Shown one piece after another: positions 18,159-27,435 of a stretch of 32,532 bases of DNA. The DNA is taken from contig JAGMCH010000029.1 of NCBI GenBank assembly GCA_023129255.1, positions 1 through 32,532 on the forward strand, given 5' to 3'. The DNA comes from Dehalococcoidales bacterium (lineage in GTDB: Bacteria > Chloroflexota > Dehalococcoidia > Dehalococcoidales > BS750m-G39). A program made the translations under genes and the position numbers. Positions within the stretch are counted from its first letter, which is position 1. Each line of letters starts with the position of its first letter. The notes beneath the pieces are model-generated. The model searched no databases and was not told the origin of the DNA. It was given only the letters and a program-made list of their open reading frames with translations.

Positions 18159-18713
18159 ATGGAAACTTGGGCGATTGTGGCACTGGTGCTAGGGTCAAAT
18201 ATCATTATTGCTCTTTCCACGTTTTTCGCCACAAAAATGCAAGTAAGCCATTCTGACAAACGGTTAGACAAAGAACTCGAAAGAGCGAGGGAGGTAGATT
18301 ATCGGGAGAGGCGACGAGAAATTAGAGGTGAACCATTACTCAAACTAAGAGCTGAGCTGGCCCGTATGGCCAACAAACAAAACAGATTGGTGGACGCGGC
18401 ACATAAACAACACACCAGGTTTGGTTTTACGGACGAAGAAGCACAAGAGCTACTGCGAGAGGCTATCGACGATTGGAACAACTACGTCAGAGGTGGGGAG
18501 TGGTTGCAAACTCTTTTCATGTTAGACGATGCGGAACTTGGAGACAAGCTAGGAGATATATTAAAGGGTTACACAGAATCTTATGTTAGTGCTATATACC
18601 ATAAAGACCTAAAAGCAACAGAACTAGGAGAAGCTATGCAGGTCTTTGAAATAAACAAAAATAAGATTATTGAAGTCCAATCATTAATTAACAAACGCTT
18701 AGAGGAATTGTAG
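18159..18713 (+). CDS. Hypothetical protein, N-terminal TM plus helical/coiled-coil region
   Basis: 184 aa; METWAIVALVLGSNIIIALSTFF TM; SD GGGAGGTGG upstream. Confidence 0.72.
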   Translation: METWAIVALVLGSNIIIALSTFFATKMQVSHSDKRLDKELERAREVDYRERRREIRGEPLLKLRAELARMANKQNRLVDAAHKQHTRFGFTDEEAQELLREAIDDWNNYVRGGEWLQTLFMLDDAELGDKLGDILKGYTESYVSAIYHKDLKATELGEAMQVFEINKNKIIEVQSLINKRLEEL

Positions 18714-18721
18714 TTCATATA

Positions 18722-18880
18722 AATAGGGAGTTTTAGAGGGGCGAAGTCCCTCTTATACAACTAATTCCCCCTCTCCTTTGAAGGAGAGGGGGACAAAGCG
18801 GGTTCCCAGGAAAATCGAAGATTTTTCTGGGTGCTTACAGGGGGTGAGGTAGAATAAATCCTATAAAATCTGGCACCGGA
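18722..18880 (+). repeat. Dispersed GC-rich repeat, copy 7 (left flank of lipoprotein gene)
   Basis: From 'cccctctcctttgaaggagagggggaca' to 'ataaatcctataaaatctggcaccg' it is nearly identical to 20524-20634. Confidence 0.9.
18805..18831. repeat. Palindromic mini-element, copy in repeat 7
   Basis: CCCAGGAAAATC-GAA-GATTTTTCTGGG; 12-bp arms, one G:U wobble if transcribed. Confidence 0.8.
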
Positions 18881-20422: not shown

Positions 20423-20634
20423 GAAGTTTAAGAGGGGCGAATACGGGGTCCCCGCAAAGGGGTGAGAAGCCCCAAGTTATAGGGAGTTTAAGAGAGGCGA
20501 AGCCCCTCTTTATAAAAAACCCTCCCCCTCTCCTTTGAAGGAGAGGGGGACACAGGGGGTTCCCAGGAAAATCGAAGATTTTTCTGGGTGCTTACAGGGG
20601 GTGAGGTAGAATAAATCCTATAAAATTTGGCACC
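20423..20634 (+). repeat. Dispersed GC-rich repeat, copy 8 (right flank of lipoprotein gene; includes an extra partial module 20423-20480)
   Basis: Direct repeat of 18722-18880; 'aagggaagtttaagaggggcga' and 'agggagtttaagagaggcgaagcccctctt' modules in tandem. Confidence 0.88.
20562..20588. repeat. Palindromic mini-element, copy in repeat 8
   Basis: CCCAGGAAAATCGAAGATTTTTCTGGG; flanked by 8-bp direct repeats ACAGGGGG at 20552-20559 and 20594-20601. Confidence 0.82.
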
Positions 20635-27068: not shown

Positions 27069-27098
27069 AAAAAACCCCTCGCCTCAAAGGGGCGAGAG
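27069..27098 (-). terminator. T-box intrinsic terminator
   Basis: Minus strand ccctctcgcccctttgaggcgaggggtttttt; GC stem followed by T6. Confidence 0.88.
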
Positions 27099-27295
27099 GG
27101 TTACTCGCGGTGCCACCCTTCTTGGTCAGATCCACTGACCATCTCTTTCAGGTACGGAGGATTTTGCCTCAATACCCTGGGGTCTGATAACGCTCCCCCG
27201 GCGACAAAGCCTACTCGTCTTTCACTTGTGAAGGACTTTCGGTTTGCAGCTCCCAAGTCCATTCAGCCTCTGCTCAGGCATCGGCTCACACCTTA

Positions 27296-27329
27296 GACAC
27301 CCAGAAAAATCTTTGATTTTTCTGGGAAC
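27296..27329. repeat. Palindromic mini-element inserted in T-box Stem I
   Basis: Minus strand GTTCCCAGAAAAATC-AAA-GATTTTTCTGGGTGTC, perfect 12-bp arms, flanked by TAAGG direct repeats (27330-27334 and 27291-27295). Confidence 0.78.
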
Positions 27330-27406
27330 CCTTACCCGACTCTCTGTGCCTTGGCTTGAAGCCTACTAGTCTTGTTCACAGCCTTTACTTTATTTACTTT
27401 CGCTCG

Positions 27407-27435
27407 ATTATATTCTAATATTCACCATCTGTCAA
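27407..27435 (-). promoter_or_regulatory. Sigma70-type promoter for T-box/trpB2
   Basis: Minus strand TTGACA (27430-27435) - 17 nt - TATAAT (27407-27412), perfect consensus hexamers and spacing. Confidence 0.85.

Follow-up and report, generated by a model that had tools for sequence, protein, structure and literature searches.

The stretch of DNA analysed here (the window, 32,532 nucleotides from a Dehalococcoidales bacterium) carries on its minus strand a tryptophan T-box riboswitch leader, preceded by a promoter and followed by an intact gene for a TrpB-like enzyme (Table 1). The match to the Rfam T-box family spans the full RF00230 model (1-219) at 27388-27085(-), with 95.1 bits against a gathering score of 93. 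A specifier codon, an antiterminator sequence, an intrinsic terminator and an amino-acid-related gene downstream are all present, as are both the AGAGA and the UGxRA pentanucleotides of the interdigitated double T-loop. The leader is a complete transcriptional Trp T-box within RF00230, but it is unusual in the distal loop of Stem I, which is longer by 39 nt; the orthologous leaders seen are all short-looped. Between the terminator and trpB2 there is also a small ORF with a Shine-Dalgarno sequence (27051-26995, -; MFILPRRWPRAGPSGIGY), which contains one Trp codon and overlaps a hairpin, GGTGGCCCC-GTGC-GGGGCC (27032-27014). The trpB2 gene of a related genome, G001 (L098), in whose examined flank no T-box was found, is preceded by a similar hairpin.

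Table 1. Features of the Trp T-box leader, its insertion and related element copies in the window.
Feature	Position	Strand	Basis or remark
Sigma-70-like promoter of the leader, TTGACA-17-TATAAT	27407..27435 (27435-27407)	-	read directly
Trp T-box riboswitch leader with insertion	27085..27388	-	RF00230 covariance-model match, 95.1 bits
First elbow-motif pentanucleotide, AGAGA	27341..27345	-	consensus AGAGA in PMC7583486
TAAGG, first copy of the 5-bp target duplication	27330..27334	-	relatives have a single TAAGG, with TG directly after
Inserted 34-nt palindromic element, GTTCCCAGAAAAATCAAAGATTTTTCTGGGTGTC	27296..27329	-	without counterpart in any related leader
Hairpin arms of the element	27326-27315 and 27311-27300 (loop 27314-27312)	-	perfect 12-bp arms
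TAAGG, second copy of the target duplication	27291..27295	-	relatives have a single TAAGG
Second pentanucleotide, T-loop UGUGA (UGxRA)	27286..27290	-	intact, directly 3' of the insertion; consensus UGxRA in PMC7583486
Specifier UGG	27261-27259	-	read from the T-box sequence
Antiterminator-bulge UGGC within GGGTGGCACCGCG	27118-27106	-	read from the T-box sequence
Intrinsic terminator of the T-box	27069..27100	-	GC-rich hairpin then T6, read directly; hairpin also in the computed fold
Regulated gene, TrpB-like PLP enzyme (trpB2 type), intact, 455 aa	25597..26964	-	NF009057, TIGR01415
Further element copy	18800..18833	+	family member, nested in a larger intergenic repeat
Further element copy	20557..20590	+	family member, nested in a larger intergenic repeat

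Read along the minus strand, the tip of Stem I runs AGAGA (27345-27341), GTCGG (27340-27336), G, TAAGG (27334-27330), GTTCCCAGAAAAATCAAAGATTTTTCTGGGTGTC (27329-27296), TAAGG (27295-27291), TGTGA (27290-27286), G and CCGAT. This is the arrangement that an earlier, sequence-only reading of the window had described, with a 34-nt insert, an extra TAAGG and perfect 12-bp hairpin arms. The surplus of 39 nt consists of the 34 nt at 27329-27296 and the second TAAGG (27295-27291). The RF00230 alignment has 51 nt in the window leader where the family consensus has 13, and the hairpin is not among the regular elements that the covariance model assigns. The core common to all copies of the element, GGGTTCCC...GGGTG, lies here at 27331-27298. 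Because two G's before GTTCCC are common to the element and the duplicated TAAGG, its 5' end is ambiguous by 2-3 nt at this site, which leaves the net gain of 39 nt unaffected. The insertion point is in the connecting strand immediately 5' of UGUGA, so that neither pentanucleotide was hit and both parts of the elbow motif survive. We put at roughly 0.9 the probability that a short palindrome has inserted at TAAGG in the Stem I distal loop of this trpB2 leader, with duplication of 5 bp. The insertion is known from one draft genome, that of the window, which is the sole genome of its genus in the comparison.

Related leaders preserve the site in its uninterrupted form. Orthologous leaders were gathered through a scan with the trpB2 protein and a DNA search of related genomes, and nine related Trp leaders (L024, L031, L033, L037, L042, L060, L064, L078 and L097) read GGGTAAGG-TG(T/G)GAG, with one additional T in L097 (GGGTAAGG-(T)TG(T/G)GAG); in the remaining related Trp leaders the loop is equally short but has small base changes. 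The 39-nt block was absent from every related Trp leader examined, including that of the same-family genome G005 (L097), and from those T-boxes inspected in the family that have another specificity. Hence the expectation that related leaders would lack exactly this block held for the related Trp leaders, as did the claim that its removal would leave an ordinary compact Stem I tip, the window site being equal to that of its relatives plus 34 nt and a second TAAGG. A profile HMM of 22 related leaders splits the window leader into two matches (176.3 and 42.4 bits) and matches it once, at 234.7 bits, when the 39 nt are left out. With the Rfam model, the related block-free leaders that passed score 94.8-115.1 bits, a range that includes the 95.1 bits of the window leader near its low end.

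These comparisons bear on whether an insertion took place at all. Insertions peculiar to certain lineages are known from all T-box domains, and a review describes 'curious insertions in every domain' (PMC7583486), which would suit a hairpin that is an ancestral or lineage-wide extension of Stem I. Such an extension is nevertheless extremely improbable and was rejected on the strength of the empty leaders: the hairpin is missing from the related Trp leaders examined, the same-family L097 among them, the window site differs from theirs by the element and one duplicated TAAGG, and further copies of the sequence are scattered over other parts of the genome. The draft, metagenome-like assembly of 104 contigs could likewise raise the suspicion of an assembly or binning artefact. 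This is very hard to credit for an insert that is shorter than one sequencing read, has continuous T-box sequence on both sides and a clean 5-bp duplication at the join, and has a like event in the RNase P gene of another genome (described below).

The inserted hairpin belongs to a dispersed family. Its arm sequence occurs seven times in the window at no more than one mismatch, against 0.27 occurrences expected, and the genome as a whole holds seven close and three weaker copies. Within the family, 10 of 11 genomes carry the element, and within the order 23 of 151; an even sample of the phylum (399 genomes) yielded three matches, namely the genome of the window, one of the same order and an imperfect match elsewhere. 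The reversed pattern, used as a control, gave no match in the family and order genomes. About 110 copies were examined with their flanks in 20-odd genomes; they share the pattern GGGTTCCC-N-G-N-AAAATC-NNN-GATTTT-N-C-N-GGGTG, and the core is about 34-36 bp long, with the form GGGTTCCC-arm-loop-arm-GGGTG. Such dispersal is as expected for a non-autonomous palindromic element of the MITE type. The sequence-only reading had recognised the same element at 18805-18831 and 20562-20588; the two copies there do belong to the family but are not identical to the insert, having one G.T pair and a GAA loop. Most copies sit within larger intergenic repeats at GGGGGATAAAG|GGGG, and unfilled targets, GGGGGATAAAGGGGG, occur beside filled ones. 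The window itself has larger intergenic repeats at 18700-18860 and 20440-20620 (AGAGGGGCGAAGCCCCTCT ... CCCCCTCTCC TTTGAAGGAGAGGGGG ... AGGGGGTGAGGTAG), in which the mini-hairpin is nested at TAAAG|GGGG and of which empty copies exist.

Duplication of the target was assessed across the family in a fixed register, with those 61 copies counted as informative whose left 5-mer is other than the common TAAAG. The right 5-mer is identical to the left one in 10 of the 61, compared with a shuffle mean of 1.1, and none of 5000 shuffles reached 10. The right-hand repeats match the left-hand target letter by letter (e.g., TACAG, TTAAG, TAAGG). Together with the T-box site and its empty relatives, this excess is the pattern found in MITE-type elements; the repeated flanks are duplicated targets, 5-6 bp in length. 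In the T-box the target was TAAGG, which is close to the favoured TAAAG, and this similarity may be the reason for an insertion into this loop. The earlier suggestion of a mobile mini-palindrome is supported by the dispersal of the element, by its empty sites and by the duplication of its targets.

The target duplications favour insertion by a staggered cut, and the element is best described as a non-autonomous palindrome that was probably moved in trans, as DNA, by an activity of this (DDE-type) kind. The arms are inverted repeats, as at transposon ends, but matches to a 17-nt arm in six genomes lie nearly all in hairpin copies, with one apparent lone arm (G002:C9:3058), so that these genomes give no sign of a longer element or a transposase bounded by such ends. 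A search for longer versions, with arms up to 30 nt apart, found 2-4-nt loops only. Bacterial MITEs such as Correia/NEMIS, ERIC, RUP and BOX (PMC2229807, PMC10969869) are likewise non-coding, palindromic, dispersed and accompanied by target duplication, but the element is far shorter, consisting essentially of two arms and a loop of 2-4 nt, and in this comparison no insertion sequence matching it was found.

REP and REPIN sequences with their RAYT transposases offer another comparison, as they too are short hairpins that are mostly intergenic. The element could accordingly spread as REP sequences do, in the form of a single-strand hairpin mobilised by a Y1 (RAYT/IS200) transposase, with recognition sequences that only look like duplications, and its short hairpin and intergenic enrichment would agree with this, as would a large excess of G.T wobble over A.C on one strand of the arms (45 versus 6 in unique cores, 111 versus 6 in total). 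The wobble excess, however, stems from about three ancestral subfamilies (arm positions 4, 5 and 6) and was set aside as evidence. The Y1 domain (Y1_Tnp, PF01797) was found in none of eight carrier genomes, all of them drafts, while control genomes were positive, and the right-hand repeats copy the left-hand target exactly, as target duplications do. On these two grounds mobilisation by a Y1 enzyme was rejected as very unlikely. Integration at the RNA level, in a manner resembling reverse splicing, is disfavoured by the orientation of the copies, since the T-box copy is in sense and the RNase P copy in antisense orientation.

In published structures, AGAGA and UGxRA interlock, and the platform so formed stacks against the elbow of the tRNA (PMC7583486, PMC4919913). 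In the RNA, the insert would fold as a 12-bp helix off the strand that joins the tip helix to the UGUGA T-loop, beside which AGAGA and UGUGA should still be able to interlock, and the duplication would restore a UAAGG adjoining UGUGA. For these reasons the filled T-box probably still binds tRNA-Trp and controls transcription, with an elbow contact that is perhaps changed or weaker. In the minimum-energy fold the tip helix GUCGG/CCGAU persists and the 12-bp hairpin forms above it; in the whole-leader ensemble, which like the fold ignores the T-loop motif, the insert lowers the probability of the tip helix from about 0.52 to 0.19.

Sequence conservation favours tolerance over detuning. Outside the distal arm of Stem I, none of the 121 conserved columns deviates in the window leader (4.1% do so in other leaders), and purifying selection appears to hold there. 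Within the distal arm, three of 10 conserved columns deviate, against 5.6% in other leaders, which could reflect weakened selection on the elbow-contact arm. All three are located between the specifier loop and the elbow-contact tip (27366-27346 and 27280-27265, -). Alternatively, the insertion may have damaged the riboswitch, with elbow docking lost, antitermination weak or constitutively off and the leader beginning to decay. Disruption of the double T-loop motif lowers tRNA affinity by up to 60-fold in the T-boxes studied (PMC7583486), and the three altered columns would be in keeping with such damage. Four same-family relatives (L092, L095, L096 and L098) have a trpB2 gene with no recognisable T-box in the flanking DNA examined, which indicates that T-box control of trpB2 has been gained or lost within the family and that its loss is tolerated. 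On the other side, both pentanucleotides of the motif are intact, as are promoter, terminator and gene, the conserved columns elsewhere are unchanged, and the insert-free L097 deviates in two of eight distal-arm columns, so the distal arm drifts in this family anyway. We consider damage possible but the weaker prospect, and predict from the sequence, with moderate confidence, that the T-box still works, possibly in a retuned form.

Copies of the element were also found in hosts other than intergenic repeats. In genome G052 (contig 26), an antisense copy near 1031-1064 occupies the P19 tip of an RNase P RNA (L219:988-1292, 193 bits, cut off by the end of the contig), where the RNase P RNAs of its relatives G015 (L221) and G071 (L222) have plain P19 hairpins, CTCCGATTAGTCGGAG and CTCCGAACTTTCGGAG. 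We regard this copy as a second, independent insertion into a structured RNA. In three genomes (L122, L125 and L217), a copy near locus position 1500 or 1055 lies in frame within an ORF for a phage portal protein, close to the C-terminal end (NSPRKIGDFSGNP); the ORF matches PHROG 64 with an E-value of 1e-40. As the copies in RNase P RNA and portal ORFs show, loops of RNAs and coding regions can accommodate the element with no obvious loss of the gene that hosts it. A phage collection gave no match to the element, and two IMG/VR viral contigs (L235:3680-3713 and L236:348-381) have a copy in flanks resembling the portal region; phages are thus a possible route of its spread.

The closest precedent is provided by the Rickettsia palindromic elements (RPE), which PMC2229807, citing Ogata 2000 and 2002, places in RNase P RNA (rnpB), tmRNA and ORFs. 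In that account they are 105-146 bp long and confined to Rickettsia, and their target duplication is listed as '?'. The likeness lies in dispersed palindromes that occupy structured RNA genes, and conserved protein genes in frame, and are apparently tolerated. The element of the window differs from RPE as so described in its core of about 34-36 bp, in its occurrence in a Dehalococcoidia-like lineage of another phylum, in its duplications of 5-6 bp and in its riboswitch host, and thus falls outside their size range and genus. In the open-access literature we found no earlier report of a mobile palindrome in the sensing domain of a riboswitch, which is no proof of absence, and none of this element in the open-access work on repeats in Dehalococcoidia.

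Unexplained helices confined to single lineages abound among riboswitches and ribozymes. The window leader presents one caught so early that its empty site, its donor family and its target duplication can all be seen, at the very contact that measures the tRNA elbow. A natural insertion with natural empty counterparts is a test case for the weight of that contact, and an element so short, with target duplications and no evident transposase, raises the question of its movement. A bolder reading, which we hold to be less likely than not, is that a mobile element consisting of nothing but a hairpin of about 36 bp, and lacking any recognisable autonomous parent, is spreading in the order, perhaps carried by phages in the portal gene, and repeatedly settles in ORFs and at the apices of structured RNAs, which tolerate it. 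Lineage-specific helices in T-boxes and RNase P RNA would in that case arise directly from mobile DNA, and the helix added to the T-box may retune elbow recognition.

A GC-rich hairpin variant was also observed between two tRNA genes of a tRNA cluster in genome G008 (contig 41; L196, near 1059-1092).
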